64,000 nucleotides of DNA from NCBI GenBank assembly GCA_943736015.1, contig OX031062.1:2090501-2154500 (forward strand), in the 5' to 3' direction. The position numbers and the translations under genes are program-made. The stretch's first letter is position 1. Every line of letters begins with the position of its first letter. The notes beneath the pieces were generated by a model, which saw nothing but the letters and a program-made list of their open reading frames with translations, searched no databases and had not been told where the DNA came from. This stretch comes from Tridacna crocea. Its lineage: Eukaryota; Mollusca; Bivalvia; Cardiida; Cardiidae. Of this stretch, positions 7,953 through 41,594 are shown piece by piece.

Positions 7953-8117
7953 CTAAGGGTAATGATGATCGTCGCCTTTGTGGTCATGGTCGTCGCCTTC
8001 GTGATCATGGTCGTCATGGGAACCGTGGCCATGGTGACTGTGTCCATGGTGATCGTGGTCGTCAGCCGCTCGACCAATCACACAGCACACCAATCGTTTC
8101 CCGGAGCGATCATGGCC
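7953..8117 (-). CDS. Gene A exon 7 (terminal): SOD C-terminus and His-rich tail
   Basis: The 165-nt exon starts after TTCCGTAG and stops at TAG (7955-7953). It encodes GHDRSGKRLVCCVIGRAA, matching the SOD1 C-terminus GSRLACGVIGIAQ including the Cys146 position. A 34-residue tail follows, made almost only of His, Asp and Gly (DDHDHHGHSHHGHG and similar), ending HHYP. The tail is in the same frame as the SOD part, which makes a chance reading unlikely. Confidence 0.85.
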   Translation of the reverse strand, partial: GHDRSGKRLVCCVIGRAADDHDHHGHSHHGHGSHDDHDHEGDDHDHKGDDHHYP

Positions 8118-9543: not shown

Positions 9544-12500
9544 GGAGGGACGGACATACAGACAGACAGAAATCATTTACTTACAACAATGGAGCGTCCC
9601 AAAATAGAGTGAGGACCAACCAATGAAAGTTTTGTATCGTTAAACCAGGCCGTAATGTCTTCTTTTCCGTCCGTCTGTATCGTGCCGAGATCACCCACAT
9701 CCCTGTAGCAATGAGAGACCTTACAAATGATTGAGGTATACATTGATCCTTGAAAATCGATATTTTGACCAATCAGGTCGTCGCACTTATTTTGTCCGAT
9801 GTGCGGCCTTGTTGTCCTCTATTTCTCCCCCCCCCCCCCCAAATAAACGACATTGGAGAGGTGCGATAGTATTTATGTATTTCGTGCTTGAATTTTAGAA
9901 GAAGTTTACAATAATTTATGATATGCTTTACAAACGTTTACCGCCGACATGCAATACAAGAACGAACAAGTACTCACGATTGATTTAAACCCTTTACCAC
10001 AAAATCCTGTGTTTTAACGACCCTGATGATAGAAGATTTTTGAGAACATTTTGGAAAGCAGAGAAAATGCTGGTAAGCAGTATTTTCTCCTATCCCCACC
10101 TTGTTTTCTATCCTTTCAGAGAAGTAACATTGTCATTTAAGCCAGATTTAACCTATCATGTACAAGTGCTTTGAATTTGGATAAGTCTAAACTTAATTCG
10201 TGTGGTAAAAGGTAAAATGGTCTTTAACGTCAGTTTCAAAGTTTTTCAGTCATATCACAGTTACAGTTCATATGTGTAAGTTATGTTTTGGTTTTCGCCA
10301 GTACTAGACTGAGGTTCTGAGGTACCTGTACTGGGTTTCCACAGTACTAGGCTGGGGTTCTGAGGTACCTTACTGGGTTTCGTCATTACTAGCTGGGTTC
10401 TCAGTACTAGCTGGGTTCTGAGGTATCTTACTGGGTTTTTGCCAGGACTAGACTGGGGTTCTGAGGTGTCTTACTGTGTTTTGCTAGTACTATGCTGGGT
10501 TTCTGAGGTACCTTACTGGGTTTTGTCAGTACTAGCTGGGTTCTGAGGTATCTTACTGGGTTTTTGCCAGTACTAGGCTGGGTTTCTGAGGTACCTTACT
10601 GGGTTTCGTCAGTACAAGGCTGGGTTTATGAGGTACCTTACTGGGTTTCGTCAGTACTAGGCTGGGGTTCTGAGGTATGTTACTAGGGTTTTGCCAGTAA
10701 TAGGCTGGTGTTCTAAAGTATCTTACTGGGTTTCATTATTACTAGGCTGAGTTCTGAGGTATCTTACTGGGTTTCGCTGGGGTTCCGATGTGTCTTACTC
10801 GAGGATAATCTCATGAAAAGCACATGGAGGCTCAGTTCAGGGCCCCCAGGGACCGTATTCACCAACCATTCTTAAGAACGGTCTTTGTTTTATTCTGTGA
10901 GACTTTCCAAGTTTGTAAGTAACACAACTTCTGATTGGCTTAACCAATTGGTTTACCTACTCAGAAGGTGTGTTACTTTCATTTTTGCAAAAATCCGGGG
11001 AAAAAGACTTAGAACGTTCTTGAGAATGGTCAGTCAATATGGACCTTAGTTACAAATTCTACACTTCTCCACTGAGCCACACAGGACCACTCTTAGAAAT
11101 AATGAACGGAAAGTGTTAACCCCCTTGTCGCTTCGAGACGAAGGTGATAGACATTCTAAGTTCATTTTCTAAAAACAATAATTTAAAAACTTTACGGTCA
11201 TCTTCGCGAACCAAGTTTACGATCACTACGTGGATCTTAAAAATGGCTGATTGAGTCCGAATTCGGGATTCCTTTGATGAGCGCTCTATTGGATGCTGGT
11301 TATTTACCCCCCCCCCCCCCCCCGCTTTACATCATATTTCTAAAAGCTAATGAAATATCGTTTTACAAACCGCTTACGAATACACATGAAGCGATAAGCA
11401 GACATCCACGTGGGTTTCCATGTTTACCTTCTTTTCGAAAGGTAGCGAGCTTGTTCTATTTTTATCAAAGATGAAATGCTACGAGCGATTTCATTCGTTG
11501 CAGTTAGAGCTGGCTGCATCCAATGAAAAAGCGTATCGGGGGAATGTAAAAATCAAGCTTGATCCGCCAAGAGTTGAGTAACGTTGTGAATCGTCAGCCT
11601 TGGCTTGCGAAGATGCTTCACGGTAAGTAACTGTGCATTTTAGTTTGTTAGCAAAAAATATTCGCCCATTAGTTATCTCAAAAAACAATCTGAATATCCT
11701 TTTAACGTTAAAATAAATGAGCTTCGACAACACAGTATGTTTATCTGACGAAGGGGTGGCTCCTTTTAAACCCCTTGTGACATTATTTGTATCATAATGA
11801 AAATAGACGATAATATAATTATGTAACTATTTTCATTTATCTTGAAAAATAATCTGTTATTAGCACTCTAATGACAACCTTTAAGGGAAATTTGTAATAG
11901 TATGATGAAGGCTACCCTGTTTCTCTTGTGGTTGGCTTGTATCGATCGACACCGCCGGTTTAGATATTGTTGTGTGGAAAGCATATCGTCAGTTTACTTC
12001 AAAAACCTCGTAACTACAGCTTGAGACAAGCTGTAGTTACGAGGTTTTTGAAGTAAACTGACGATATTCATGTATACGAGGCTCCCAGAAGAGAAACTGC
12101 TATTTCGTGAATTTTGTAAATGTACATATGAATATATGTTCGGGACATATTTCCCGATCAGATTGCGAAAAATTGCTTTGTAGTGTTATAAGGAAACTTG
12201 TTCACAGCTATGGCGAATCGTTTCATCAGCTCACCCGCCTTTAGCTCGGAGCGACATAATTCGCCACAGCCACAAACAACCTGGCCGTACAACTAATTAT
12301 ATATCTTACCTGTCTTTATCAATGGGATCATAGTGACCCCCGAGGCTTTTGCAGTTCTCGGAGAGGTCTCCAGATTCATGCACGTGTACATCCAGCTCAT
12401 CCAAGTCGAGATCACTCAGTGAGAATTTGAACTTGGCAAACCTGTCGTAGGCCTGGAACAAAATCAAAGCGTCGACACTAATTTGAAAATCAAGCAGAGG

Positions 12501-15500
12501 CCACTTAGTGAGAATTTGAATTTGGCAAACCTGTCGTAGGCCTGGAATAGAATCAAAGTGTCGACACTAATTTACAAATTAACTGAGCCATGGTTTAGCA
12601 AAGGGGGCTTAAAGATACACGTAAACTCGTTCTTCACTTTAACTTTATTACTTGTATGGTCAGGTGGCAGAGGACTTGGTAACTTGTTTACGGCTGTGGT
12701 TGATCATGTGGCCCCAAGCCTTTTGCTCGGGGCGACATGATTCACCACAGTCATGAACAAGTTTCCAAGTCCCGTGCCACTTGACCGTACATTGAATCTA
12801 TTATACTGCAAAGTTTTACCATTCCAACGTTTGTTCAGAGAATTTTACCTGTTTTGTTGTTGTTGTTGTTGTTGTTGTTGTGTAAAGAACTGGGTACTCT
12901 GAATAAAACAGATTTTCACTTTTGAGAGCCCCATTTTAATGCAAACCCACGTCACTGGGAACTGACGTCACTGAAACCTTGGTATACGTGTTAAAACGCG
13001 CAGCTTGGCGCATAATTTTGATGTTAATCCTGATCGACGCCGGATGGATATTGTGTTTATAGTGTAATCATATATACAGGGCTTCCGAAGGGGACACTGC
13101 TTTTACGTTGGCTTTTTGGCAGTATACATGATATATATGTTCGGGGCATATTATCCAATCAGATCATGAGAAATTTCTTTGCAGTATAAATAAATCTTTA
13201 TTTCATGAAACTTTAATCATTCTTGTATCTTCATGCTAGATGTTTCTTCTGAAAGTTACATGGCTACACAGATTACGACCTATAAAAACTGCATTTCATT
13301 TATCTCTTTTTTTTTAGGGGGGGGGAGGTTTATAGAAACCAATGTTGGCGTTTCCGGTTTGAATATACTTGATATATGATGTCATGTTTTTTTTTGTTTT
13401 CACGTGATCCCACAGTAAGTTTAAATGCGCCTAAAACTCGAAGAGTTCCACTCAACCCTTTACCACTCAATCCCGTCTTTTGACGATCCTGAGAAAGAAG
13501 CCAATAGAAAACATTGTGGGAAAAGGAGAAAATGCTGGTAACCATACTTTCTACCCTATCAAAGTCAGAAATCACCACAATCATTAACAAGATGTTAATT
13601 TGTTGTCTGCAGTTGCTTTGATTTTGGTCCAGTCCAACAGTTTGTCTATTGGTAAAGAGTTAAGGATAGGGCACTCTAATGGGATTCGTTTTACATCACC
13701 TTTCATCGCCAAAATCGTTTATGCTTGGCTTAGACTCGGGCAACCCGTTAAAACAATGCCGGGAAGCATCATCTATCGGCCAGTCGATTACGGATTACCC
13801 GAACCTTACCAGAATCCATACGATTTTTTCGGCGATGAAAGACGATATTACACGGATACCATTAGGGTCCGCTATCCTTGATGGAAAAAGAATTATCTAA
13901 GCGGAGAGAGATTTGACAACCGAAACCTTGTCTTTATCAACATGCGTGAGTAAAAGTGACATTTCAAAGCAGTTAAAAGTCGCGCCCCATTTGAAATCCT
14001 TCAATAAACAAGCCGGTGTAATGCAGAGAAATAATCCTCCCCTACAAAATGACCCAGACCATTATTCTACGTAGAGAAATGACCCCAGAAGTCATTTTAG
14101 AGGAATGAACCAGGCCAATTTTCTCCATTGAGAAATGACCCTCTACGTAGAGAAATGACCCATGAGTCATTTTGTATTCCTCTACGTAGAGAATTGACCC
14201 ATGAATCATTTTTGGGGGGAAGGTTATTTCTCTGCATTACACCGGCAAAAGGCGGTTTATGCACGTCCGGGACGTCTATCTGTCTGTCTGTCTGTAGGAG
14301 TGTTATGTTTCTAAAATACATAATTATAGTCCAAATGATGAAGCAAAAAAATCATATACTTACATTCTGCGTAATGTAAACATCACCTTTACCAAACTTA
14401 CAATGAGCAGAGTGTTTGTGATCTGTGGGAAAAAAAGACAATAGTTATACGTATTTTTTTTAAACCCTTTACCTCATAAGCCAGTTTTATTGGTCTTCAT
14501 TAAAAAGACATTTGGAAACATAATGGGAAAAGGAGGAAATGCTGGTAACCAGCTTTTTCTCCTTTTTCCGTCATGTTGTGATCCCTTTTAAATGACACAT
14601 AGAAATAGATTCAGTCAAGAATAATCTGTAGTATGCAAATGCTTCCAGTTTCGACAAGCCGAAAGTTTTATCTTTTCGGAAAGGTTTAAGACCCGTGTAA
14701 CCCTATTCTTAATGGCTTGCAACACGCGAAAAGGGGCATTTAGACATCTGCGTAAAGTGTCGTCTCGGATCAGCCTGCGCAGTCCACGCAGGCTAATCCG
14801 AGACGGCACTTTACGACTACATTTCATTTTGTGCTACAGTAGACATGGGCAAAACAGAAAGCTACATAAAAAAGAAGGTTTCGTATCGGATTAGCCTGGG
14901 CGGATTGCGCAGGCTGATCCGAGACGACATTGTACGCAAATGTCTGAATGCCCCTTTTCGTGTGTTGCAAGCCATATGTGAAAGCAACAAGTTGTGGTGA
15001 CGCTTTGTCAGTATTCGACCCAACTCGGCCGTTTCCGGACCTTCATCTATCAGGATGAATTCATCACCCGAGCTTTGCAGAACATCTTTGTCAGATTTAA
15101 GACTTGTCCACTTACGTAATGGGAGACAAAAAAACGTGAAATTAGGATTAAGTCCCTTTTAACATAAAAGTCAAGGTAACCGAATTGAAACTGTGCCCTT
15201 TTATTTGATTTTCTTTGATTTTCAGCCTTGCTTCACTAACACATGTTGCGATTGCAATAATTTAAAGCACAACGTACATGTACATGTACACGCATATGTA
15301 AGGTCTTCATAATATTTGCAAGTCGAATTTCACATACTAATACCATCGAAATGCGTCAAATAGATCGAATTAGTGGTTCGATAAATTTTTAAGGGTATGA
15401 TTAAACCTGAACATTTCTAAATAGTGGAAAGGATGACAAAGATAAACAGTTAATAATACCTTATTCAGGACAAAAGAAGTAGAAAAGAGCTATCAAGGGA

Positions 15501-18500
15501 AGAATCTGTCTTTAGATTCGTTTTAACCCATTACCACACAATCCTTACTTTTGACGCCCCTGAGAAAGCCTTTTGAAAACACTGTAGGAAAAGGAGAAAA
15601 TGCTGGTAACCAGCATTTTCTCCTTTTCCCATAGTGTTTTCTACCCTTCCCAGAACAAATTTCAATTTTTCAGGCACCTTTATTTTGTCGTCTGCAAATG
15701 CTTTCAATTTGAACCAGTCTAAAACTTTGTCGTGTGGTAAAGAGTTAATAGGGTTCAAGCCTTTACCACGTGACAGATTTGTAGCCTTTTCCCAATATTA
15801 AAAGCACTTGCAATGTGACGTTGAAAGCTATTTTTCAACATTATTTCAGTGTTAGCACGGTGCCCAGTACATCTACCCGTGCTTTTATGTAGTTCATGTT
15901 TTAAGCGTACGGCAACAATTTTCTTTCGAAGATTGTGGCTACTTTCTCCTATGGGCATCGTCGCTACACTCATCAGCAGTAAAAGAGGAGTGAGTTTTAA
16001 TGCAAAGGTTGTCATCAAAACTCTGAAAGAATTTTGTCTACTTTGGGATTCAAGCCATCGAACTCATGATTCCAAGCCCAATAACGTGACAGGCTCAGCT
16101 ACCTTCGCTCGGCAAATGAAAGACCTAAAAGAAAATAGAAATTGGAAAAGACCAAACTGTTCCTACTATGATCGTCCACAGGTCCATATATGCCACCATG
16201 ATGAAAGTCTTCGAAACGTAGATTAACATTCACATGTACATCTTCGTCATGATCATGGTCGTCATGGTGACTGTGGTCATCATGGTGGTCATGGTGACCG
16301 TGATCATCGTGGTGGTCATGGTGACCATGATCATCGTGGTCGTCGTGTTTGGCTTTTCCGTCATCACCGCTAAAAGTGAACTTGATCTGATTAGAGCCAC
16401 ATCTCTCGATGGCGCCTCCCTCGGGGTGTACAACACTTGCTTTGAGCTCGTCGAACTTCTGTTGTAAGGCAGCGATATTATGCTCTGCAATAAAACGTTT
16501 CTATGGTAACATATAGATTTAAGTCCTGTGTAGATGTTTGTTTGTCTGTTTTCCTGTTTTTCATTTCTTTGATTTTATTAAGTTTTTATCAAACGACAAA
16601 ATTTTAGACGGGTCCAAAATTGAAAAGATGCATAACTCAAAAATTAAAATGTTTCAAGAAGGACAGAAAAACGAAAAGGAGAAAATGCTGGTTTGAAAAT
16701 GTTTTTTAAAGGGTTTTTTATCAGGGTAGTAAAAACAGGGATTGTTTGGGAAATAGTTAAGCAGTGTTTTGTATACCTTTGAATATTTCATTGCCAGAGA
16801 AAGAAATAGAGGATATTTGTTTTTATCGGTGAAAGATCGAAATTTATTTCATCGGGTGAACACCATCGGTAATATTTTCAAGAGTGGCACAGTCACGATT
16901 GAAAATATTACCGATGGTGTGCGCAACTCTTGAAAATATTACCGATAGTATTCCCCGGATGAAATAAATTTCGATCTTTCACCGATAAAAACAAATATTC
17001 TATTTATGTAATGCTTTTAATCCTTTCATGGAGGAGCTTTATCAAAATCCAGTACAGATCTTTTCCGTTGTTCCCCGTGGCGTACCCCTCCAGCATAGCA
17101 ATGCTTTTCAGTATTACGTCAAGCGCGAGAAATGTAAGGTAAATGACGTCATATTTCCATCTGGTTGTTAGGCACGCGCAATTTACCAAGGCAACAAGAA
17201 CATGAAAATCGGTATTTTCAATGATCGTACCGGTGAAATATCGAAAAGTATTTTCACAGCTATTTCACGATATCCTACCGGAAAGCATAAAATGAAAAAT
17301 CGACCTGTTAAGAAGGTTATTATAGTTGTACGGTCCGGTGGCAGGGGACTTGGAATTTGTTATAGGGCCTACTGCAAAGTTTTAACTTTGAATTTTACCA
17401 GTGTTCATAATTTTGGTGAACCAAGTCGCCCCCTCGCCTTCGGCTCGGAGTGATATGATTCACCACAGTCGTGAACAAGTTTCCAAGTCACCTGCCACCT
17501 GACCGTACAACTAATATTATTATACTGCAAAGAAATTTCTTATGATCTGATTGGTTAACTCTTTACCACACGACAAACTTTAAGACTGGTTCAGATTGAA
17601 AGCATTTGCAGACAACAAAATAAAGGTGACTGAAAAATTGAAATTTGTTCTGGGAAGGGTAGAAAACACTGTGGGAAAAGGAGAAAATGCTGGTTACCAG
17701 CATTTTCTCCTTTTCCTACTGTGTTTTCAAAAGGCTTCTTTCTCAGGTGCATCAAAAGTAGGGATTGTGTGGTAATGGGTTAATATGCCGGGAACATATA
17801 CATGTATCATGTTCCCTGGGAAAAACCTCGTAAATCCAGTTTCCCTTTTGAGTGCCCCGTAAACATCAACACAATATCCAAAATGGCGGCGTCGATCGAC
17901 TACCAGACTGTACATTTACGCTCCAAACTGCATGTTTTAGTGACGTCATTTTCCAGTGATGTCAGTTTCATCGAAATGGGGCACACAGTAGGGAATTTCT
18001 ATTGCGTCAGCACACTCGATTCGTTAAATTATAAAGCAGGAAAATTTCGCTTAAAGCGCTTTGAAAGGGTAAAACTTTGCAGTATAATAAATTCGTTGTA
18101 CGGTCAGGTGGCAGGGGACTTGGAAGCTTGTTCACGGCTGTTGTGAATCATGTCTCCACCTCGCCGTCGGCTCGGGGCTACATGATTAACCAAAGCCGTG
18201 AACAAGTTTCAAAGTCCCCTGCCACCTGACCGTACAACTATTAATGTTTGTGGCATAGCTATTGTCCAAACTGATCGCGAGAAATGTTTTTGCAGTATAA
18301 TAAGAATTTAATGATGAAAATTTACCTATTAGAAGCATGCTTTCTGCTAAAATTTAGTCTCGATGGGTTATTACAAGTGAAACTCTTTACCAAAGTACAA
18401 AATTTTAAAATGGCCCACAGACGGGATATGGATATTGACAAAAACGCAGTAAGTTTTATCTTATACAGTAAATAACATCATGGGAAAAGGAGAAAATGAA

Positions 18501-19089: not shown

Positions 19090-19132
19090 GTTTAGTCACT
19101 GAAAAGATGAAATATAAGACAGTTTATCTTAT

Positions 19133-19632
19133 TATACTGCAAAGAAATTTCTCGTGATCTGCTTGGTTGACATGCCGGAAACATATATCATGTTCCCTGG
19201 CAAAAACTACGTAGAACTAGCTTCCCTTTTGAGTGCCCCGTAAACATCACTACACGTGCAACACAACATCCAAAATGGCGGCGTCGATCGATCACCAGAC
19301 TGCACAATTATGCACCAGACTGCACGTTTTAGTGACGTCAGTCTCCATTGACGCCAGTTTTCAAAGAATTGGGGCACTCAGAAGGGAATTTCTATTTCGT
19401 CAGCATACCCGATTCTTTAAATTATAAAACAGGAATATTTCGCTTAACGCGCGTTGAAAGGGTAAAACTTTGCAGTATAGTAAATTCGTTGTACGGTCAG
19501 GTGGGAGGGGACTTGAAAACTTGTTCACGGCTGTGGTGAATCATGTCGTCACCTCGCCTTCGGCTCGGGGCGACATAATTAACCACAGCCGTGAACAAGT
19601 TTCCAAGTCTCCTGCCACCTGATCGTACAACT
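19133..19632 (+). mobile_element. Body-plus-palindrome composite element
   Basis: Body TACTGCAAAGAAATTTCTCG (19136) to TTTGCAGTATAGTAAATTCG, palindrome GGTCAGGTGGGAGGGGACTT to CCTGCCACCTGATCGTAC. Lies 45 bp upstream of the gene A start codon. Confidence 0.72.
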
Positions 19633-19645
19633 AATAATGTATAAG

Positions 19646-19845
19646 TCTTTACCAAACGACAAAATTTTAGACGGGTCCAAATTGCAAGCATTTTCAGACG
19701 ACAAAATGAATGTGACTAAAGAATTGAAATTTGTTTAAGGAAGGAAAGAAAACATTGTTGGAAATGGAGAAAATGCTGGTTATCAGCATTTTCTCCATTT
19801 CCCACATGTTTTCAAAAGGCTTCTTTCACAAGGGCGCTAAAACTC
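19646..19845 (+). mobile_element. TTAA MITE, partly decayed
   Basis: CTTTACCAAACGACAAAATT, hairpin TGGAAATGGAGAAAATGCTG; the right end degenerates into a G-rich run. Confidence 0.6.
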
Positions 19846-21119
19846 CGGTTGGGGGGGGGAAGTGGGGAGGGAACTTATATCAAAATTCAGCAGTGTTGTT
19901 CTAATCTGTAAACGTAGATCCATCATCAGATTGCATGTTCAGTGCAGTCTGATCTTGATCTAAACTTTCAGCTCAAGAAACACAGGCTATAAGTCATAGC
20001 TCGCGCTGTTACTCGAATAGTTTGGAACGGTTTGAAGGTTTTTAGGCCAGGGAATCCCTCAAGGGATTCCCTTGCCTATAGGGATCGTAAGCTGTCTATT
20101 CAGACAAAAATGTTGGTTGGTGTGTCCACTCTATATCGCTGAGTCCGCCAAAACAACTAGTTTCCTAAGTATATACAGAGATTGCTTATCACACGGTGTG
20201 AATGCTTTCCTTTCCTCAAAGCTTTCATCTGCAAAACGCCATAGAATTGCAAGGGTATTACAATCCTTTAATAACTGACGAGTGTGTGTTTTTTTTATCC
20301 CATTTTTGTCATTAACACTGACCTAATAAAGGCGTAACCTAATGAACTTTGTTTATCCGGCAGTTGAGTATTCCTACGCGCTATATACGGTTAATATCTA
20401 TAACGCTCTCTCTTGCACTCCGGATCATTCATATTCAGGTATGGTGAGATTAACGAACAACGACTCTGCTCGGAGTTTGTCTATAACGTTGTGTTGACAT
20501 TTGAACATGTGTGTCACAAAACGCGTCTCCGCTAAAATGCGATTGTAAATAAAGCAAACTGCATATAGAATATTGGCTCGTGTTATGTTTATCACTTTTT
20601 CTTATGTATATAGACTAAATCTAGGGTACTTCAGCGGAATGCTGGAGAAATCGGCCCCTGGAGAAATCGTCCCCAAACTGGTTGGCCCGTGTTATGTTCA
20701 TCACTCCGGAGAAATCGTCCCCTGGAGACCATTTCTTCGGTGAAATCGTCCCCAAATAAAATTTCAGAAAAATCGACCCCAACATCAGATTTCATCCATA
20801 TCGTTAATCAAGTTGTCTATAAAAATATTTTTGAAATTTCGTTGTCTTTAGTATATACATTATGTGTATTAGATACCTTTATCCAAGAGTTATTTGGTAG
20901 TTTTGTCATTGTTTATACTGCCTATTTCACACTGATAGGATGTATTTCACACCTTTTACACCTGTCACAAATAGATTACACCTGTGTGATTCTTAAAAAT
21001 GTCTTTGATTGACTTTGATTTGAAACCAAATAAATGCTTACAATTTTTTTCTGTAGTCGTTCGCTTGTCATTTAATGTATTTTTTTCTCTCTCTCTCTAT
21101 CTCTCTACTAGTGTCATAT

Positions 21120-22479: not shown

Positions 22480-22708
22480 TTAACCCTTTACCACACAATG
22501 CCGACTTTTGACGACCCTGAGAAAGAAGCCTGTTGAAAACATTGTAAAGAAAGGAGAAAATGATGGTAACCAGCTTTTTCTCCTTTTTCCACAATTTTTT
22601 CCCTCCTCTTCGATACAAATTTAAAATTTTCAGTCACTTTTGCTTTGTCGTCTGCAAGTGCTTTCAATTTGGGCAGGTCCGAAATTTTGTCGTTTGGTAA
22701 ATAGTTAA
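22480..22708 (+). mobile_element. TTAA MITE, well preserved
   Basis: TTAACCCTTTACCACACAAT to TCGTTTGGTAAATAGTTAA with hairpin, followed directly by a GA microsatellite. Confidence 0.75.
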
Positions 22709-26799: not shown

Positions 26800-26805
26800 T
26801 TTATT
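26800..26805 (-). promoter_or_regulatory. Possible polyadenylation signal of gene B
   Basis: AATAAA on the minus strand, about 165 nt after the gene B stop codon. It is the only canonical hexamer noticed close downstream. Confidence 0.35.
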
Positions 26806-29900: not shown

Positions 29901-30963
29901 CTAGAATAGTGTCATCAACGTCATCGTCATCATCGTTATTATCATCATTGACATCTAAGTTATCAAAATCGTCAGCTTCCTCGAGAATAGTATCAGCAAT
30001 GTCATCATTATCATCATCATCATCATTATCATTAACATCAACGTTATCTCCAGGTATGTCCAAATCGTCAATTATTTCTGCTACATTTTCCTCAGTTTCA
30101 GATATGTCATCTGCTACATTATCCATAAAAGATTCATCATTATCCCGAGTTTCTTCAATTATATCATCTACGTCATCTGTAATGTCATCATTCTTTTCTT
30201 GCAAGTCCTCGATCGGCTCTAAATCTTCTACAGCATCTAATTCACCAAGCTTGTCAATGACGTCATCTGCAATATCAGACAAATTATCCCCTAAATCGAG
30301 ATCGATATCTGTCAGTTTATCGTCTACTCTCTCAACAAGATCTTCAATATCTGGGTCGTCAATAGATTCCAACAACTCTTCTACAAATGTTTCTATCAAA
30401 ACTTGTAAATTTTCTTCCGTGATTCCATCGTCAAAATTAACTACTTTTGCAGCAAACTTCCGAATCAGATCAGGTATTTTGCTTTCCATATCGTTAAGAA
30501 CCACATTGCTAACATCTGTAGGAATATCTATTGTTTCCAAAGCTTGTTTTACGTTGTACAAGACTCGTTTTGACACAGCAGAGATTACTGACGGCGAAGG
30601 TTGACTCAAAATTTTTCTTACGTTTGAATTTTTGTCAATTACTGGTAGCATTTTGTCAATTATCAGTGGTACTAAAACGCTATCGCCAGCAATATCGCGA
30701 GCGATCTTTGTTGCATTAAGTTGCTTGGCTGTTTGATCAGTTGGTCCAAAAACTGAATTTATCCTTTCAACAGGAATCGGAAGTCCAAATCCTATGGCTG
30801 TGCCATCCGGAGAGAGGTCTATCCGTTTCGGCACCAGTTCGGGTCTAATGGGCTCTTCTAGGATAAGCGATTCTCTGCTTTCTGGTTTCGCCAAGGCTTT
30901 ATTTGTTCGATCATGAACAACCACGCAGCAACCTGTCGGGTCTCGATCGTTAAGCCCTCGTAT
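26968..30963 (-). CDS. Gene B exon 7: end of SOD fold plus about 1300-residue acidic repeat region
   Basis: The 3996-nt open exon starts after TTATTGCAG. It first completes the SOD fold (RDPTGCCVVVHD), then has about 170 residues of ordinary composition with conserved-looking helices (NATKIARDIAGDSVLVPLII). From there to the end Asp, Glu, Ser, Ile, Val and Asn dominate, Lys and Arg are rare, and there are runs such as DNDDDDDNDD. Between about 28630 and 27270 some 15 units of about 37 residues repeat the core EPIVEASKDVVDS...DIIDD, which looks like amphipathic acidic helices. The C-terminal 100 residues add Tyr, Phe and Asn (NYLFDYDRDFD). The stop is TAA at 26970-26968. Confidence 0.88.
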   Translation of the reverse strand: MRGLNDRDPTGCCVVVHDRTNKALAKPESRESLILEEPIRPELVPKRIDLSPDGTAIGFGLPIPVERINSVFGPTDQTAKQLNATKIARDIAGDSVLVPLIIDKMLPVIDKNSNVRKILSQPSPSVISAVSKRVLYNVKQALETIDIPTDVSNVVLNDMESKIPDLIRKFAAKVVNFDDGITEENLQVLIETFVEELLESIDDPDIEDLVERVDDKLTDIDLDLGDNLSDIADDVIDKLGELDAVEDLEPIEDLQEKNDDITDDVDDIIEETRDNDESFMDNVADDISETEENVAEIIDDLDIPGDNVDVNDNDDDDDNDDIADTILEEADDFDNLDVNDDNNDDDDDVDDTILDGFSDTMDNISDDLDDSGIISVDAEDDNMESLSEKIEETVESISDLDISTDNDITEKMKDFDDGVEGIGDVVENIAENMDELEISSDEDIGEKIDNLEVGNMDDVAESISSVDTEIGDEGLITDLGEDLSENLLDGIEGQSDMISEVREDLNDNIIDEIADDNPIKDKIDDAIDVTDLGDFLEKSNEKEYAINDDVDDTVGEIDEFLEDAVENTFYESEDSLLMNDDYKEDIINNDDIEGIPLKDDGIVEVIDDMDDDIDENVIMKKETTFENFEIDDDFLNSLSDKLNGISELDIEQDLSDDSPSNIKFVSRLSGSQDAIDISDKDDEKTLEEIMDNIDDAKVLGTETDEDDSLTALEDDALISVDVEDDASTVPDVLDNVSDTVKDISSDTMENIKDSIDDISIDIDNMDDHADDLTDINEEVFDPIVEATSNVVDSISDIADDSSTDSVTDIIDDAREEITEKVGDIVEPIVEASDDFADSTKDVLEDTIQEDLSDTFEPIVEASENIEDSANDVFDSINDAAEDTAAESVIDNMEGVRERLTENVDDVLKPIVEASDDFVDETKDVLDDMIPEDLVDTVEQIAEASEGIVDDASDFVDDSSPELTDDMIKPAVEVSTDVVDSLSDIVNDGLPDVTDNIIEGAAETSTDAVDSVSDIIDDASSEFSNDIAETSTNVIDSVDNIIEDVSSDVTDDIVEPMVEAAKDAVDSAGDIMDDVSLEQSNDILEPIVEASTDVVNSVTDVIDNVSPDVIDDIVEPMDEASKDVIDSSNDIIEDVSTDATEDIIEPVVEASKDVLDSTTDIIDNALPDLANDIVEPIVEASNDVVDNAKNIIANGVSENIIEPVLDTSGELVDAAVNTIEPIVEASKDVVEKVSEVSNINDDYDKDNYLFDYDRDFDLQEHNYDQSNLIDDYESSVGDIGTINDNTDFLQDTLYESYDSSNTFASNNEDNFDTSDLFSPSFADSSGLAVDDK

Positions 30964-33900
30964 CTGCAATAATAATATTTAAAACAGATATGATAAAATA
31001 GTTTTCAGCTAACTTAATATTCTAGATTTAGCCCTAATCATACATTTCTAGACCATCCATTAGGTTCGTCTAGGCGTCTTTCTCGGCCATTGAGGTAATG
31101 AGTTCATAACAACAACAACAATAATAATGATAATAATAAAAATTGTTATTGTTGATGATGGTGATGTATTTTTTCCCAATTGTTATAAATATTATCATCA
31201 TCAATTCTATTTTTTGAAAATTAATAATAATAATAATAATAATTATAATAATGATGATGATAATTATTATTATTATTACTGTTATTATTATTATTATCAG
31301 AGTTACATCAAACGACAGATCCCTTAGGCACACCAATCTTTTACCATACACTGAATGTAACCACCCAGTTCCTCTTTGATCCTGTCCTTGGACAAGATAC
31401 ATGTACTTCGGAACCCTAGCCTAGCACTGGTGAACCCCAGGAAATACCTGAATTTGTGAGCTGTTGCCGTGATATGACTGAAATAATGTTGAAAGCAGGG
31501 AAAAAATCAATCAATAAGCATCTTTGATCGCAAGGAAAGTAATATCATAGTAAGTAGCATTCCTTGATCTTTTAAAAGTAATTTTTGTTCGCAGTGAAAA
31601 ATGCAATTTGCCCTCATGCATTAAGCCCTCTCCAACCATCTCTCTGTGATAGTATGCTTTAAGGCCCGTATTCTCCCTTATTCTTATCACACTCTATGTT
31701 CCAAGACTATCGATTTGATTGGATGGATCAGAACGTCCTAGCCAATCAGATAAATAAGCTTAAAAGTTAAGAATTTTAGACAACAGACAGACTGGATGGG
31801 AGGGTCAATACTGTCCCTGCTTTACAGACTCTACAGAGGGGCGATGCTCTTTGAAAAGTTGGCTGGTTGTATTGGGCTTTAACGCCACTTTAACAGGTAA
31901 GGTCATATCATAGAGGTCGGTGACGCACTTGTGTTTCCTGGCTTTCTCACACCAGTACTTACACTACTTTCTTTCCAAAGCCACCGACTACTTTTCTCAC
32001 ATGCTTCAGCAGAGGTGAGAGGCGAAAATACGCCGGAAAGAAAGTTCGCCTCAACCAGGTGTCGAACTCACAACCACCAGGTCATGAGTCCGACACGCTC
32101 ACTACTGAGCCACCCGGGCGGGCTCTTTGAAAAGACTGTTAAACGAATTTGTAGAACGTATAGACCCATGTTAACCTGCGCAGTCCGCGAAGGCTGACAT
32201 GCATCGATACTCTTTGCCATTGGTCAATTTTCTTCATGGCAAATTGAAAGTAAATGGCGACATACTTTGTGATGAGCTTTTCGAACATGTGTTAGAGCTC
32301 TTTTTCCACTATATGCCTCTAAAAGATAAAACGGCGAAAAGGAAACATAATAATTACCCTATATCCTAGATCTGCGTAGACTGGTCTAATCTGATAGAAA
32401 AATAAAGTAAAAAAACAAGTTACAACAAAATATGTGTATAAAAGTAAAATTAAAGGCAAGTAAACAAAACATGATACAAAAGTATACTGAAAGGCAAGTA
32501 AATAAAACATGATATAAAAGTATATTTAAAGCAAATAAATAAAAGATGATATAAAACTATAGTTAAAGGCAAGTAAATAAAACATGATATAAAAGTATAT
32601 TTAAAGCAAATAAATAAAAGATGATATAAAACTATAGTTAAAGGCAAGTAAATAAAACATGATATAAAAGTATAGTTAAAGGCGAGTAAACAACAAAAAG
32701 GAAAAGTCTGGGTGCAAAAAAAGCAACAACTTACAACTATAGATCGGCCGAAAATAGAAAACCGTCCATCTAAACTAGCTGGAACACTCGTCATGTCAGC
32801 AGTGGCCCTGCCTCTGTTGTCTGGTACAATATCGCCAATGTGACCTGTATATCTGTCAAAACAATGTTTGGAAATGGTTAACTCTTAAACATATGACAAA
32901 ATTTTAGACTTGTCCAAATTGAAAGCATTTGCAGACAACAATTCAACATGTCAACGGCGGCTTCGCCTTTATTGTCAGGTACAATATCACCTATGTGATA
33001 TCTTTGGACACAAACAGTGCCGGGATCGTTTAATTCTTTGCAAAACGACAAAAGAAACCAGATTTAGTCAAATTGAAAGAATTCACAGACCATTAAATGA
33101 AGATGGCTTGAATAATGATGTTGTGGGTAGTTATTAGAATTGTCTCGCTGAGACGACATAGGATTTATTGGAGAATTATTAGTATTTTCAATTTTGAAAT
33201 CAAGATCACTCCCTCCATCTGGAGCTCTGGATATATGCGCTGGTCACAATGGCAGAACTAGAATACTATTGAAAATTGCATTAGCTGTTCACTAAACTAC
33301 AAAAATCTGGATTGTCTGTAATCGGATGCATGTGCAGATAGAATTTACATGTGACTTACAGGATAGGAACTGTATTCGGAAAGGTAGGAAAAAATGTGGA
33401 GAAAAAGGGATTGTTAATTAGTTATATTGGAACTTGACGCCGTTTTAACAACTTAGGTCATATCTGGGCGGTCAGGAAACGTACGCATGTGTTTCGTGGC
33501 TGTTTTACAATAGTACTGAACACAACTTTTCTTTCCAAGTCAAGGACTATTTTTCTCAGACGATCGCCAGAAAGAAAAATCGCCTTAACCGGGTTTCGAG
33601 CACGCAACCTACAGGTCATGAGTCAGATACGTTAGCCACTGAGGTACCCTGCCGTACTCTTAACCCTTTCCCAAACAATCCCTGGTTTTTCCGTATCTGC
33701 AGTACAAGTCTTTTGAAAACACTGTGGAAAAAGGAGAAATTGCCCGTAAAGAGCAATTTTTCCTTTTCCCACAGTGTTTTCTACCCATTTGGAGAACTTT
33801 CTGCCTTCAAATTTGAAGTTGTCGTCTGCAAACTCTTTGAGTTTGGAAGAGTCTAAGATTTGTTGTTTGGGAAAGGGTTTAATCGGGGGCATGTATAGAT

Positions 33901-36900
33901 GAAAAAATAGGTGTGACATAAACAATGGGAACTACATTCGAAAAGGTAAAAAAAAAGTGGGAAAAAAGGAAGAAACTGGTTGCCACTATAGTTCACAACT
34001 GTCTCTCCATCAAGGTCGTTAAACTCGTGGAAGTTTTATAATGGGTTAAACACCAAACGAAATTTAAAAAATCCTAGTCATATATAGAGGATATTTGCCT
34101 TTTTTGTTTGTGTGAAATATCGAGGTCTATGTCATCTTGTGAAAATTATCGGTAATATTTTCACTTGTGAAAATATTACCAATGACGTTCACGATATGAA
34201 ATAAATTTCCATCTTTTACCGAAATGAACAAATATTCCATTCTTATTTCATGTTTCTAATCCGTTCCTTAGGGTCTTTTACATCATAATCCAGTGCAGGT
34301 CTTTTTGGTAATTCCCCGTGACGCACCCCCTCCGCATAACAACTTATTACAATATTATGTAAACCGCTAGAAAAGTAGGGTAAATTACGTCATATTTACA
34401 CCTGATTGAATGCATACCCATTTGACCTAGGTACATATAACTATTGCGCGGGAACTGCTGTTTCCGCCTTCAATTAAAGAGTTGGACAATAAAATCGGTA
34501 TTTTTCACTAGTCGTAACCATAAAATATCGAAAAAATATTCCGCCGTTTTTCTCGATAAACTACCGGAAACCATGAAATAAAATGTGTCACTCACCTTGA
34601 TGTCTCGAACAAATTTCCGACCTGTTTACAGTTTCCACTGACGTCGCCATATTGGTGTACTTCTAACCGGAAGTAGGTTCCTTTCGTGGCAGGCAACCCT
34701 TCCAATCTAACTGACATATGTAAAGGATTGCCATTTTTGCTCGTTTTCTGAATGCGAAAACACGAAAGAAAGCTGAAGCCATCGATCAGTAACATTTTCC
34801 AAACAAAATAAATTGTTGTTTGTTTGTTTGTTTGTTTGTTTGTTTGTTTACAGACACTTTAAAGCAATACGATTTCTGACTACCTTAACTAAATGATTAA
34901 AACAATTTAAAGTAATGCCATTTTTTCCTCAAAAAATAAACAGACTGGGCACTCAAGAAATAAAAATTAATTATGCTGTTACCACTCTAAAGATATTTGA
35001 GGGGTGCGAATTCGAAACCATAATTTTGAAATGTGGATGTGTTGATCTGCAACGATTTTTTTAAATGTCAAAACTGGTAGGTAACTGAAACTTTTGGCAG
35101 ACGACAAAACCAAAAACATTGCTTGGCTGATGAAACATGGCCTTACAATATTATCAAATTTCCTATCAGTATTGGAAAAAGTGTAAATGCTGGATTCCAG
35201 CATTTTTAATTATCATTGTTATTTTCTTTGATCATTTTTTTTTTTCAAATTTAAATTCATCAGGGTCATTAAAAAAGAAATAAAAACATCATTAGTTGTA
35301 CGGTCAGGGGGCAAGGGCCTTGGAACCTTGTTCACGGCTGTAGTAAATCGTGTCGCTTCCTCGCCTTCGTCTCGGGCGACATGATTAACCACAGCCGTGA
35401 ACAAGTTTCCAAGTCCTCTGCCACCTGACCGTACAACTTATGATAATGCAAAGTTTTACCATTCTAACGTTTATTAAACGAATTTTAATCTTTTTTTTTT
35501 TCAGTAAAAAAAATGAGAACGCTGACGAAGTAGAATTTCCCTTCTGAGTGCCCAAATTCAATGAAAAAGGACGTCACTGGGAACTGACGTCACTAAAACC
35601 TTGGTAGTACGTGTTAAAACGTGCAGCATGGGGCATAATCTTGATCGATTCCACCATTTTGGTTGTTGTGTTGATAGTGTAGTCATGTATACGGGGCTCC
35701 CGAAAGAGAAATTTCTTTTACATTTATTTTGCCAGTGTAAATGATAAATAAATACGTTCGGGGCATATTATCAAATCAAATCACGAGAAATTTCTTTGCA
35801 GTATGATAAAATAGGCTGGTAATGTTAAAAATACGAAATCGTAGAAACTTTACCCTTTGGTAAAAACGAATTCTGCCGGTCACAGTCGATTCTCGCGGCC
35901 ATCGTGCACCAAAATCACATTCACCAAGTCTGAAATCTACAGTAACAACAAATGACAGCTCTAAATTGCTTAGAGAGAGAGAGTCGTTTGGCGTGCAGAA
36001 AATACATCTGTAACTAACAGTTTCGATCCAGATCAGCCTACTTTTTCCTGGTGCATGAATCCCCTTTTTCACAGATCCAAAGTCGTCTGCTTTAACCCTT
36101 TACCAAACGACAAAACTTAAGGTTTGTCCAAATCGAAAGCATTTGCAGACGACAAAATAAAAAGTGACTGTAAATTTGAAATCTGTATGTGAAGAGTAGA
36201 AAACATTGTGGGAAAAGGAGAAAATGCTGGTTACCAGCATTTTTTCCTTTTCCCACAATGTTTTCTAAAGGCTTCTTTCTCAGGGGCGTCAAAAGTAGGG
36301 ACTGTGTGGTTATGGGTTAAATCCTTTTTTTTTTAGATAACGGGTTGAGCAATCACAGACATTTTTTTATTATTATTATCATTATTTAGTTGTATTGTAT
36401 TTTTTCATACTGATGAGCCAGTGCTTAACCTATAAATTATCGTAAATGTATAGCCGTTATTGCATATCATGGGAAAAATCATTTTTTTTAAACAGGTAAG
36501 TTTCGATTGGCTTTATAGCCTATTGGTATCGTATAGTTGCCGATTACGTTTGTGAAGATTATATCACACATTAATTCGGTGTTTTATCATTTATTTAATC
36601 CAACAAAAGGGTTAACTGTCGCGTCCTTATGAAAGTTTCTTACAAAATATCAACTTATGCTTCCCCCCTCCCCCCCCCCCCCCACAAAAGAAAGAAAATG
36701 GTTCAACATCTTGTTTAATGCCCTTTCAAGTTTCCCCCCCCCCCCCCCAGACGTACTATATGCAAGTACTAGTTTAACGCAGTGGACCCGTAATAGAAAA
36801 CAGCTATTTCCACTGTAATATTACCCTAGAAAATTTGCTGAGATTAAAAATGAGCATTATTGTGCTACTTTCACCGAGCCACTTTTTCCTTTTTGTCCTT

Positions 36901-39900: not shown

Positions 39901-41594
39901 GACTCCCTTGGTATATTAACTCCCTTGGTATATTGACTCCCTTGGTTTAATGCAGCACGAAGATGGATGTAATCCCATTTTTGCCGGAGCATGGCTCAAC
40001 AACAAATGAAATAATAATAATAATATAATAATAATTTATTTATTCACTTAATTCCCCCTTACTGGAGATTAATAAATAGATAGTATATGGAACAATTAAA
40101 AGTAAAACAGTGAAAACAAAAATAAAATAATACAAAAAACAAAACAACAAAAATAATAATAAAGATCAATACAATAAGCTACGTGTTATTCACACCTGGT
40201 GGTAGCGGTTTGAGATGATGATGATGATGATGATTATTATTATTATTATAATAATTATTGTTTTTTTTTTTTGTTGTTGTTGTTGTTGTACATGACGGTC
40301 CTTCTGTTGATTACCAAAATCATCCTTGAGCCATGTTTTGGCTAAAGGGTGTTAAATACATATACGTGATGATGATACCATGCAAGTTAACGCAACATCA
40401 GAGCGCAATGGAACCTTAAGGTAGCAGACCCTTGATAAAAAAAAAACAGACATTTCCACTATAATATTATCCTACAAAATTTGCTATGATTGAAAATGAG
40501 TATTATTGTACTATTTTAACCGAGCCACTTTTTCCTGTTTTTTCTTCCTTAGAACTATCATTTATAAATCTAAAACCACTATATTCTCATCACGAAGGGA
40601 GGTAATAATTACCTCCCTTTTCTGGAAATTAACAAATATCTCAACAAATAACTTTAAAATAGACATCAAAGGAATTTCTGGTCGGTAAAAAATGTGCAAA
40701 AGTATTATATCTGTATAAATACATACTTATCAAATATCAAGAAATTTCATTCCATGTTGCACCAGCAATGAACATATTACAGGTCTACTATCTTAAATTC
40801 CGTTTTTTGTCTGACAATCAACTGAATCCTGTTGTAACTTGGTCCTTTGACCACCGGAAAACTTACAGATAGCAAAAAGGATCGACTCATGTCAACCTGC
40901 GCGGACTGCGCAGGTTGACATGAGTCGATACTTTTTGCAGATGCATTAAACCCCCTTTTTCACAGAGCATGCCACACAATTACCTTACCTTTTTTCTCCT
41001 CGTAGAATGAACGTTGTTGTACGACAGGCGGGGTGTCTACAGGTGTATCCCACATACCACCAAGGTTAAAGCCATTCAAATAGGATTGGTCTGAAAAAAT
41101 GAATGACAAATGTCAGAGTTGGATTGATTGATTGAATAAATGATTAATTGATTGGCTGATTGATTGATTGATTAAATGAATGAATGAATGCATGAATGAA
41201 TAAATGAATTATTGATTGATTAATTGATTGATTGATTGACGCCGTTTTCAACATTATTTCAATCATACCGCGTATCCATGCTCTCCTGGTGTTTCTTTTA
41301 CCAGTAGTCCTCATAATATTCTTTCCAAGCCACTGGCTGCTTTCATACGTAACAGTGGATAGAGGTCAGAGAGGAATGAATCCTGTCGCAAAAACTATCA
41401 TCAGTTCTCAGAAAGAAATGTTCCGAGCGACAAAGTTGGTAACATCATGGAAAAGGGAGAAACTGTTGGTTGAGTACAGAATCTAAAGTCTCTAGTAATA
41501 ACAAACAGATTATCTTACCGTATGTCGGTTGGCTTTTGGCCAACATTATAATGTATCCGAAAATGTATAGAATAAGTCCAAGCATACAATCCAT
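26968..41594 (-). CDS. Gene B: secreted SOD-fold protein with giant Asp-rich repetitive tail
   Basis: Seven exons (41594-41519, 41090-40989, 35936-35854, 34747-34596, 32852-32735, 32390-32358, 30963-26968) join in phase and give about 1519 residues. Residues 1-22 form a signal peptide, about 60-205 a Cu/Zn-SOD-like fold (VTGRIRF, LEVHQYGD, GHIGDIVPD, FSIFGRS, TGCCVVV), and the rest an extremely acidic low-complexity region. Compared with SOD1, His48, His80 and Asp83 remain. His46 is Glu, His63 is replaced, the His71 loop is missing and His120 is Arg, so it should not be an active dismutase. Both structural Cys positions (57 and 146) are kept. Gene A has the same exon phases, so the two are paralogues. 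An Asp-rich secreted protein suggests calcium or mineral binding, for example in extrapallial fluid or shell matrix; this is inference. Confidence 0.87.
31100..31300 (+). repeat. (AAT/ATT)n and GAT-rich simple repeat
   Basis: AATAATGATAATAATAAAAA to ATTATTATTATTACTGTTAT, partly self-complementary. Lies 140 bp upstream of gene B exon 7. Confidence 0.85.
31855..32125 (-). mobile_element. SINE, antisense, gene B intron
   Basis: Minus strand: GGCTCAGTAGTGAGCGTGTC and GTTCGACACCTGG head; GCGTTAAAGCCCAAT tail. A second copy lies at 33410-33650. Confidence 0.7.
32358..32390 (-). CDS. Gene B exon 6: 33-nt microexon
   Basis: ATT...AGG lies between TTCTATCAG and GTAATT and encodes IRPVYADLGYR in phase 0 both sides. 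By alignment with SOD1 VVHEKADDLGKG it covers the electrostatic loop start, with Arg at the copper-ligand His120 position. It is short but the frame, splice sites and SOD alignment agree. Confidence 0.7.
32450..32697 (+). repeat. AT-rich tandem repeat, about 75-bp unit, between gene B exons 5 and 6
   Basis: CATGATATAAAAGTATATTT, AAAGCAAATAAATAAAAGATG, ACTATAGTTAAAGGCAAGTA in rotation, about three units. Confidence 0.8.
32735..32852 (-). CDS. Gene B exon 5: SOD HIGD region
   Basis: The 118-nt exon lies between TTTTGACAG and GTAAGT. It encodes YTGHIGDIVPDNRGRATADM and LDGRFSIFGRSIV. GHIGDI keeps the His80 and Asp83 zinc-ligand positions. Length and phases are identical to gene A exon 5, which is strong evidence that the two genes derive from one ancestor. 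Confidence 0.88.
32947..33002 (-). pseudogene. Degenerate duplicate of part of gene B exon 5
   Basis: About 56 bp in intron 4 of gene B reads HIGDIVPDNKGEAAVDM on the minus strand, clearly related to exon 5 (HIGDIVPDNRGRATADM) but diverged. It lacks acceptor and donor, and is squeezed between two broken TTAA-MITE halves (32878-32944, 33026-33160). It may be a relic of a duplicated exon or of a third paralogue. Confidence 0.7.
33410..33650 (-). mobile_element. SINE, antisense, gene B intron
   Basis: Same family as 31855-32125 (CTCAGTGGCTAACGTATCTG, CGAAACCCGGTTAAGGCG). Confidence 0.68.
33659..33882 (+). mobile_element. TTAA MITE, second loop type
   Basis: TTAACCCTTTCCCAAACAAT to TTGTTTGGGAAAGGGTTTAA; hairpin core GAAATTGCCCGTAAAGAGCA. 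Confidence 0.72.
34085..34580 (-). mobile_element. Hairpin family, reverse copy in gene B intron
   Basis: Diverged hairpin 34100-34235, AAATTACGTCATATTTACAC block, ends AAACTACCGGAAACCATGAA, abutting gene B exon 4. Confidence 0.65.
34596..34747 (-). CDS. Gene B exon 4: SOD ligand region with lost ligands
   Basis: The 152-nt exon lies between CGCATTCAG and AG|GTGAGT. It encodes KTSKNGNPLHMSVRLEGLPA, then YFRLEVHQYGDVSGNC and KQVGNLFETS. LEVHQYGD aligns with SOD1 FHVHEFGD. The first His (46) is Glu and the second (48) is kept. Cys57 is kept. The PHFN motif with His63 has become GNLF, and the following loop is deleted as in gene A. Confidence 0.85.
34811..34850 (+). repeat. (TTTG)n microsatellite
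   Basis: About nine GTTT units. Confidence 0.9.
35295..35806 (-). mobile_element. Palindrome-plus-body composite element, in gene B intron
   Basis: Palindrome 35295-35440 (GTACGGTCAGGGGGCAAGGG), body 35441-35806 ending GAGAAATTTCTTTGCAGTAT; CCACCATTTTGGTTG block present. Confidence 0.72.
35854..35936 (-). CDS. Gene B exon 3: start of SOD-like fold
   Basis: The 83-nt exon follows TTACTGTAG and ends AGG|GTAAAG in phase 0. It encodes FRLGECDFGARWP and RESTVTGRIRFYQR, which matches SOD1 CVLKGDGPVQGIINF. An alternative AG six bases inside the chosen exon would break phase with exon 2, so the upstream AG was chosen. Confidence 0.75.
36092..36320 (+). mobile_element. TTAA MITE, well preserved, in gene B intron
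   Basis: TTAACCCTTTACCAAACGAC to TGTGGTTATGGGTTAA, hairpin intact. It sits just upstream of gene B exon 3. Confidence 0.76.
36774..37143. mobile_element. TIR element, AGTGGACCCGTAATAG family
   Basis: Ends AGTGGACCCGTAATAG and CTATTACGGGTCCACTACCT; the interior is shared with 40418-40797. In a gene B intron. Confidence 0.7.
37526..38143. repeat. Array of CCTCGTAACTACAGCTTG hairpins
   Basis: Five hairpins (about 37526, 37629, 37743, 37848 and 38058) plus a broken one (37949). Each arm is GTCGGTTTACTTCAAAAACC then TCGTAACTACAGCTTG. Spacers TATGTAGTCAAGAACACA are shared among the first ones, giving a period of about 105 bp. Single copies elsewhere at 11983, 23948, 49053 and 49963. Confidence 0.8.
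38450..38885 (+). mobile_element. Two decayed TTAA MITEs side by side
   Basis: The first (38450-38672) keeps CATAACAAGATAAAATTTTG and GGACTGTTAGGTAAGGGT. The second (about 38673-38885) keeps GGGAAAAGGAGAATATGCTG, ATGCTTTCAATTTGAACC and TTTTGTCGTTTGAC. Confidence 0.5.
39767..39953 (+). repeat. 17-bp tandem repeat, 11 copies
   Basis: CTCCCTTGGTATAATGA and near-identical units in exact 17-bp steps. In a gene B intron. Confidence 0.88.
40418..40797. mobile_element. TIR element, same family as 36774-37143
   Basis: AAGGTAGCAGACCCTTGATA and ACAGGTCTACTATCTTA ends; interior ATTACCTCCCTTTTCTGGAA shared. Confidence 0.7.
40868..40955. repeat. Hairpin GTCAACCTGCGCGGACTGCG
   Basis: AAAAAGGATCGACTCATGTC ... 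complement ending GACATGAGTCGATACTTTTT. Degenerate relatives at 25450-25525, 32155-32215 and 53825-53865. Confidence 0.7.
40989..41090 (-). CDS. Gene B exon 2: N-terminal linker
   Basis: The 102-nt exon lies between TTTTTTCAG and G|GTAAGG. It encodes DQSYLNGFNLGGMWDTPVDT and then PPVVQQRSFYEEKK. The NGFNLGGMWDTPVD part resembles the end of gene A exon 2 (FEDFHHGGIYGPVD), but the His-rich block of gene A is absent. Phase is 1 in and 1 out, as in gene A exon 2. Confidence 0.78.
41131..41240 (+). repeat. (ATTG/AATG)n simple repeat
   Basis: GATTGATTGATTAAATGAAT and similar, followed by a SINE tail (GACGCCGTTTTCAACATTAT). Confidence 0.85.
41519..41594 (-). CDS. Gene B exon 1: signal peptide
   Basis: The ATG at 41594 starts MDCMLGLILYIFGYIIMLAK followed by SQPTY. 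The hydrophobic core has no acidic residue, and cleavage is likely near MLAKS. The donor G|GTAAGA leaves phase 1, and the next exon starts AC, giving Asp. The exon is 25 codons plus one base. Confidence 0.8.

Follow-up and report, generated by a model that had tools for sequence, protein, structure and literature searches.

The locus considered here lies on contig OX031062.1 of the bivalve Tridacna crocea (assembly GCA_943736015.1), in a window of 64,000 nucleotides (positions 2,090,501 to 2,154,500 of the forward strand) that was analysed as a whole and whose own numbering is used below. It holds two neighbouring genes, A and B, each with a superoxide dismutase (SOD) domain, A with two His/Asp blocks and B with a very long acidic tail, and the question it raises is how two such proteins are related and what they might do. 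The first-pass annotation saw in them one ancestral extracellular SOD-like protein that had split into a metal carrier and an acidic matrix protein. The reading that we prefer, and hold with about even confidence, is that A and B are anciently diverged paralogues of the secreted type (extracellular SOD, EC-SOD/SOD3-like), A being a metal-binding plasma-type protein and B a pseudoenzyme with a possibly calcium-binding helical tail. Papers are cited by their PMC numbers, and statements on the literature apply to excerpts of it.

Gene models and SOD domains

A and B are both minus-strand genes, B (41594-26968) upstream of A (19089-7953), with 7878 nt between them. To locate the exons, the sequence was translated from stop to stop, scanned for motifs with clam relatives as a guide and scored for splice sites, after which the pieces were joined. 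Each gene has six exons, each coding sequence is one frame with a single stop, and the introns are GT-AG in 10 cases out of 10. Intron phases 1,1,0,2,0 are common to A and B and exon 5 measures 118 nt in both, in agreement with the first-pass annotation, the phase-1 introns of B being partly chosen. The products have 293 residues (A) and 1508 residues (B; 166 kDa, isoelectric point 4.05). The exons are given below; the profile E-values come from a SOD profile that itself contains A and B and so flatters both.

B exon 1, 41519 to 41594, minus strand: start codon, hydrophobic signal-like peptide and phase 1 donor, from an open reading frame and donor scan
B exon 2, 40989 to 41090, minus strand: 34-residue spacer without similarity to A exon 2, phases 1/1; the least certain exon
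B exon 3, 35854 to 35936, minus strand: first SOD strands (DFRLGEC...GRIRFYQR), from a pattern scan
B exon 4, 34596 to 34747, minus strand: SOD core (LEVHQYGDVSGNC), profile E 1.2e-13
B exon 5, 32735 to 32852, minus strand: 118 nt, corresponding to the human SOD1 exon 4 stretch, profile E 1.8e-12
B exon 6, 26968 to 30963, minus strand: last SOD strand (GCCVVVHD), 180-residue neck, 1133-residue acidic helical tail and stop, in one open frame
A exon 1, 18981 to 19089, minus strand: signal-like peptide and basic stretch, phase 1 donor; sole candidate in a signal-exon scan of 16490-26960
A exon 2, 16197 to 16484, minus strand: helix-like stretch and first His/Asp block (36 residues, 17 H, 14 D)
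A exon 3, 14364 to 14422, minus strand: first SOD strands (SAHCKFGKGDVYITQN), from a pattern scan guided by clam relatives
A exon 4, 12310 to 12452, minus strand: SOD core with copper histidines (VHVHESGDLSENC...GGHYDP), profile E 4.4e-15
A exon 5, 9585 to 9702, minus strand: 118 nt, corresponding to the human SOD1 exon 4 stretch, profile E 1.8e-17
A exon 6, 7953 to 8117, minus strand: last SOD strand (CCVIG), second His/Asp block (36 residues, 14 H, 11 D) and stop, profile E 0.087

Against Pfam Sod_Cu (PF00080) the final models score 61.5 bits (A, 1.4e-16) and 43.1 bits (B residues 1-392, 7.2e-11), both above the curated cut-off of 28.9 bits. The rebuilt exon chains bear out two tandem same-strand genes with a secreted-type SOD fold. 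Earlier partial models that lacked exon 3 reached 54.9 bits (A) and 37.1 bits (B), and the higher score obtained with exon 3 supports the exon 3 models of both genes. The best single-domain matches in the PDB had E-values of 5.9e-13 for A and 6.5e-8 for B, the top PDB row for both being 6dtk, a two-domain construct. When the SOD profile was run over the 2161 stop-to-stop open reading frames of at least 20 residues, only five matched at E <=1, namely those that hold exons A4, A5, A6, B4 and B5; exons A3, B3 and B6 drew no match in that scan. Within the SOD stretch A and B are 33% identical. A Cys before strand 1 and a CC pair in the last strand occur in A, B and human SOD3 and not in SOD1, the readable SOD1-type rows having C then G at the position of the pair.

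The models are not equally firm throughout. A first model of A, in which exon 2 was joined directly to exon 4, was dropped once clam relatives revealed that the first SOD strand was missing, and exon A3 was then found. The two phase-1 introns of B were partly chosen rather than independently found and constitute weaker evidence than its other three introns, because the search for exon B2 was confined to phase 1/1 candidates (one lay above the splice cut-offs, on splice signals alone), because an alternative acceptor of a different phase is possible for exon B3, and because a direct join of B1 to B3 that skips B2 keeps the frame too. Exon 2, which lies between the two phase-1 introns, is unlike in content in A and B.

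The ligand table gives the two domains different characters. A retains the copper ligands H46, H48, H63 and H120, as well as D83 and R143; H71 is deleted, H80 is replaced by D, the zinc site is lost and loop VII (the electrostatic loop) is gone. Four copper histidines, no zinc site and a short loop VII characterise Cu-only SODs, and this combination is found in A and not in B; the E110/D113 signature pair of that class (PMC13017621) reads D/D in A. B keeps only H48 of the seven ligands, with H at position 83, and is best read as a pseudoenzyme. The full copper and zinc set of an active Cu/Zn SOD is present in neither protein, A being without H71 and H80 and B having one ligand in seven. The two His/Asp blocks reported for A are there, 36 residues each, and they flank the SOD domain on both sides, which is not so in B, with its 2 His in the tail. 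Whether or not it has SOD activity, A most likely takes up copper in the barrel and further metals in the His/Asp arms, and the best reading of it is a metal-binding plasma-type SOD-fold protein.

The likeness of A to His-rich bivalve SOD-like proteins holds as well, since it has the same make-up as proteins of Ruditapes philippinarum (P0002, 'histidine-rich glycoprotein-like', and P0006) and Mercenaria mercenaria (P0004): a signal-like start, a helix-like stretch, a His/Asp block, a SOD domain that lacks the zinc and electrostatic loops, and a His-rich end. By this likeness the genes probably come from a heterodont bivalve. They differ from A at R143, found in A only, and from B in that none of them has an acidic tail. 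P0001, P0002, P0004 and P0005 carry the same ligands as A with another residue at R143, while P0006 has Q at 48, and P0003 has S at 63, T at 80 and N at 83. The public name of P0004, 'LIM domain-containing protein A-like', looks wrong, as Pfam gives only Sod_Cu (5.7e-16) and the protein is His-rich.

Two partial exon copies were seen beside these exons. One repeats the start of exon A4 at 12491 to 12541 (minus strand), in the intron just upstream of A4 and with an acceptor of its own (45/51 nt identical by local alignment), and could permit an alternative splice. The other, at 32947 to 32998 (minus strand) in intron 4 of B, is a decayed partial copy of exon B5 with 41/52 nt identical, its local alignment score being 49 where 50 shuffles of the intron reached 24 at most.

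The acidic tail of gene B

The last SOD strand of B, GCCVVVHD, stands in the same exon and the same frame as the acidic tail, as the first-pass annotation had it, and the connection of the SOD domain as a whole to the tail hinges on the predicted join of exons 5 and 6. Past that strand there are 1313 residues, of which the first 180 form a neck (D+E 14.4%) and the remaining 1133 are acidic (D+E 34.2%). The label 'Asp-rich' is loose, D alone amounting to 23.4% of the acidic stretch. The 1133-residue stretch further contains E 10.9%, I 10.4%, S 9.1% and V 8.9% (I+V 19.3%), with K 3.1%, R 0.7% and a net charge of -345; the whole tail has no Cys. Exon 6 is open for 1336 codons, the maximum in 200 nucleotide-pair shuffles being 125.

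Hydrophobic residues of the tail recur at 100 degrees (z 20.5), with no enrichment at 160 to 180 degrees (z -1.4 to -2.3), and the self-identity of the tail peaks at a lag of 30 residues (z 9.2) and again at lags 60 and 90. Judged from its periodicity and composition, the tail is an acidic amphipathic-helix repeat, with D/E on one face and I/V/L on the opposite one, and not poly-Asp. Its best-kept part is the following.

27424 to 27873, minus strand: five best-kept 30-residue tail repeats (exon residues 1030 to 1179), pN/pS 0.37 in frame

Among these five repeats the proportion of nonsynonymous differences (pN) is below that of synonymous ones (pS) in all 10 pairs, at a pooled ratio of 0.37, compared with 8/10 (0.78) and 3/10 (1.27) in the other frames; differences by codon position number 85, 51 and 157. 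The repeats were chosen for protein likeness, which biases them to low pN/pS and leaves the other frames as only a partial guard. The mostly silent differences between them indicate that the tail is real coding sequence.

From these properties a course of action for B can be proposed. On the evidence of its signal-like start, the protein would leave the cell for the calcium-rich haemolymph or extrapallial fluid. The barrel may act as a head for folding and, if the particles of pernin and dominin are a guide (PMC6530089), for forming oligomers, and the 1,133-residue tail would do the work. Charge would keep the tail open; calcium, to go by the composition, could neutralise the acidic face, whereupon the helices might pack via their I/V faces and B assemble into a calcium-holding particle or gel. 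Any part that B might play in the shell, as a matrix protein, and the tissue in which it would act are likewise inferred.

The tail could instead be an array of amphipathic helices that bind lipids or surfaces, which would make B a lipid carrier or droplet coat and not a calcium scaffold. Exon 6 matches Pfam ApoLp-III (2e-8), Apolipoprotein (1.6e-6) and Perilipin_2 (1.5e-4), and the strong helical periodicity suits such a role. All three matches, however, fall below their Pfam cut-offs (34.9 of 36.3, 28.4 of 90 and 21.7 of 30.1 bits, respectively) and may reflect amphipathic composition, and a net charge of -345 with so little Lys and Arg is presumably unlike typical lipid-binding helices. We consider a lipid-binding tail unlikely.

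Descent of the two genes

The phases and the 118-nt exon common to A and B had been put forward as the sign of a pair. Variants place introns of human SOD1 at c.169/170, at c.239/240 and before c.358; exon 4 begins at H81, and Q23 and G28 fall in exons 1 and 2, respectively (PMC11138100). By continuous numbering exon 4 runs from c.240 to c.357, that is 118 nt, with phase 2 before it and phase 0 after it (PMC11138100). This exon spans the same stretch as exon 5 of A and B, and the human c.169/170 intron is absent from both genes. The first intron of SOD1, which we take to lie at c.72/73, would match the phase-0 intron that follows ITQN in A and FYQR in B. Phases 0,2,0 (three of the five) and the 118-nt exon most likely represent the inherited animal SOD layout; since they also occur in human SOD1 they are not evidence of a close A/B pair. 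Common gene structure as proof of such a pair was rejected, its SOD-domain part being inherited layout.

Trees were built with rows for eight database proteins (P0001 to P0008) and PDB fragments, pernin, EP, HIP and cavortin not being among them, in sets of 12 rows, of 10 (P0007 and P0008 out), of 9 (P0003 also out) and of 13 including human SOD3. A placement of the two SOD domains in unrelated families, which would have refuted the first-pass annotation, is not what these trees give. For a clade of A+B the approximately unbiased test gave p-AU values of 0.0106 (12 rows), 0.0088 (10), 0.0534 (9) and 0.0286 (13), and in the 13-row set a second alignment gave an identical tree. In three row sets A groups with P0001, P0002, P0004, P0005 and P0006, at 88/88, 98/96 and 83/84; with 12 rows the clade of A and the clam His-rich proteins was not found, yet was not rejected (p 0.363). 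B stands outside the A group in every tree, joining P0003 at 67/75 with 13 rows. A clade of the secreted-type rows was not rejected at 12 rows (p 0.17) and received 78/69 with 10 rows, 58/16 with 9 and 77/83 with 13. Human SOD3 groups tentatively with the eight secreted-type rows, apart from SOD1, at 76/89 (not starred). Tree support is modest throughout, and it disfavours the sisterhood of A and B; the single ancestor of the first-pass annotation is retained as an old split and not as the origin of a sister pair.

That A and B arose as a direct duplicate pair, one of them a metal carrier and the other an Asp-rich shell matrix protein, we regard as quite unlikely. Two neighbours on one strand, 7878 nt apart, with the same phases, the same 118-nt exon and 33% identity in the SOD stretch speak for it, but human SOD1 also has phases 0,2,0 (its first intron at the presumed position) and the 118-nt exon, the p-AU values just given speak against it, and the tail is helical and I/V-rich rather than a run of Asp.

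The reading that we prefer, of old secreted-type paralogues with A a metal binder and B a calcium-responsive pseudoenzyme, has several findings against it. The active-site R143 is kept in A and not in P0001 to P0006, which speaks against an active enzyme in the group. The 9-row tree does not reject A+B at 0.05 (p 0.0534), and the branch of B is long (about 2 to 2.9 changes per column), its placement being unsure. In the tail, an 82-residue repeat pair displays no constraint, with a ratio of 0.84 in frame against 0.91 and 0.45 out of frame, and was discarded as evidence of selection; only 8 of the 28 neighbouring 30-residue windows are informative (pN < 0.36); in all 8 of them pS exceeds pN. 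AlphaFold2 (AF2) models of two single-exon pieces of B, made without an alignment, are mostly helix at a mean pLDDT (predicted local distance difference test) of 46 and 50, too low to use. The weak apolipoprotein-like Pfam matches on exon 6 fit lipid binding as well as calcium binding.

Some of the same observations would suit a decaying gene B whose tail is functionless simple-repeat DNA: the long branch, the lost ligands, the decayed exon 5 copy in intron 4 and the unconstrained 82-residue pair. Against this are the 1336 open codons, compared with at most 125 in 200 shuffles, splice sites that are all intact and the silent-site excess in the best repeats, and decay is in our judgement very unlikely.

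Surroundings, known relatives and implications

Elsewhere in the window, a broken Ty3/Gypsy-like element occupies 55535-61023 on the plus strand, with its domains in an unusual order: integrase comes first, then reverse transcriptase and RNase H, and a gag domain of SCAN type lies downstream of these. The element consists perhaps of two tandem or nested copies of an element that we take to be Gmr1-like. A dispersed repeat whose translation contains words like KGENAGYQHFLLFPQCF is present in many minus-strand copies in the introns and the spacer, and three examples recognised by such translated words are listed. Rfam returned 0 matches in the window.

15534-15797, minus strand: dispersed KGENAGYQHFLLFPQCF repeat
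17594-17779, minus strand: dispersed KGENAGYQHFLLFPQCF repeat
22491-22787, minus strand: dispersed KGENAGYQHFLLFPQCF repeat

Among known systems, pernin, EP/HRG, cavortin and dominin are secreted proteins with a SOD domain that bind metals (PMC6530089; PMC12784942); pernin, cavortin and dominin are reported to have no SOD activity (PMC6530089; PMC12784942), and dominin to have five mutated metal histidines (PMC12784942). Related SOD-fold plasma proteins form particles and bind metals (PMC6530089). Compared by description only, B resembles the pernin/cavortin/dominin group in its ligand loss and A resembles HRG in its His-rich make-up. Pernin has three SOD domains (PMC6530089) where A and B have a single one; the sequence of dominin gives 19.4 kDa (PMC6530089), that of B 166 kDa; and the excerpted descriptions of pernin, EP, cavortin and dominin mention no acidic tail, unlike what is seen in B. 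Cu-only SODs and CSRPs share with A four copper histidines, the absence of zinc site and loop VII, and, as predicted for A, an extracellular location (PMC13017621). A stands apart from them by D/D at E110/D113 and by its lone domain flanked by His/Asp arms. CSRPs consist of repeats in tandem, and the excerpts of that source describe Cu-only SODs of one domain from fungi and oomycetes only (PMC13017621). B, without a copper site, is unlike both. Human SOD3 resembles A and B in the Cys that precedes strand 1, in GDLSxxC and in the CC pair of the last strand, and differs in having all metal ligands and the electrostatic loop.

The acidic shell proteins (Aspein, Asprich, MSP-1 and Tridacna Tcr_654638) are very acidic, as is B, the D+E content of 34.2% in its tail comparing with 32.4% in Tcr_654638 (PMC8217771). 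B differs from them by its SOD domain and I/V-rich helical tail, Tcr_654638 having Asp runs (PMC8217771). The Laqueus shell contains an ordinary extracellular SOD of 22.4 kDa. A SOD protein bearing an acidic tail did not appear in the excerpted literature on Tridacna, Laqueus, Lottia, Dreissena and Mercenaria, nor was one named among the papers listed by searches of open-licence literature on the SOD-fold family or on shell and plasma proteins. A protein search with B residues 1-290 without exons 1 to 3, over 3814 candidates of 0.55-1.75x length, found no B orthologue. No protein combining SOD and an acidic tail was present among the 7994 and 7998 best word-sharing candidates of two further searches, in which His-rich words may have crowded others out and the first of which (7994) used the first, incomplete A model. 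The statement that no described member carries a giant acidic tail stands within these searches and this literature.

That B belongs to the calcium-binding phosphoprotein particle which Marsh described from heterodonts is highly improbable, for although heterodont plasma has 30-40 nm particles with a protein rich in Asp, phosphoserine and His (PMC6530089) and B is acidic with 9.1% Ser in its tail, that tail has only 2 His and I+V of 19.3%, A has His and Asp with few Ser, and SxE sites are below chance (6 vs 11.4 plus or minus 3.0), so that SxE phosphorylation was rejected, though SxD sites are somewhat above it (31 vs 24.3 plus or minus 4.0).

Going beyond the preferred reading, B might be the first example seen of proteins whose catalytically inactive SOD barrel nucleates a giant acidic helical scaffold that responds to calcium. 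It would share a fluid with A, which would then be an animal SOD of Cu-only-like type, built of one domain and His/Asp arms for metal, and the two would form a mixed-metal plasma or extrapallial particle; we put this forward as a doubtful though conceivable extension. The combination of a dead SOD enzyme with an acidic helical tail that might hold calcium would be new, if confirmed. The major proteins of bivalve plasma and extrapallial fluid have been drawn repeatedly from SOD-fold proteins without SOD activity, which hold metal and might feed the shell. Proteins of the A type suggest that single-domain Cu-only-like SODs occur in animals, for which a 2026 review tells, in its excerpts, only of tandem-repeat forms (PMC13017621). 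A SOD head followed by a 1,133-residue acidic helix repeat would be a concrete, cloneable candidate for calcium storage.

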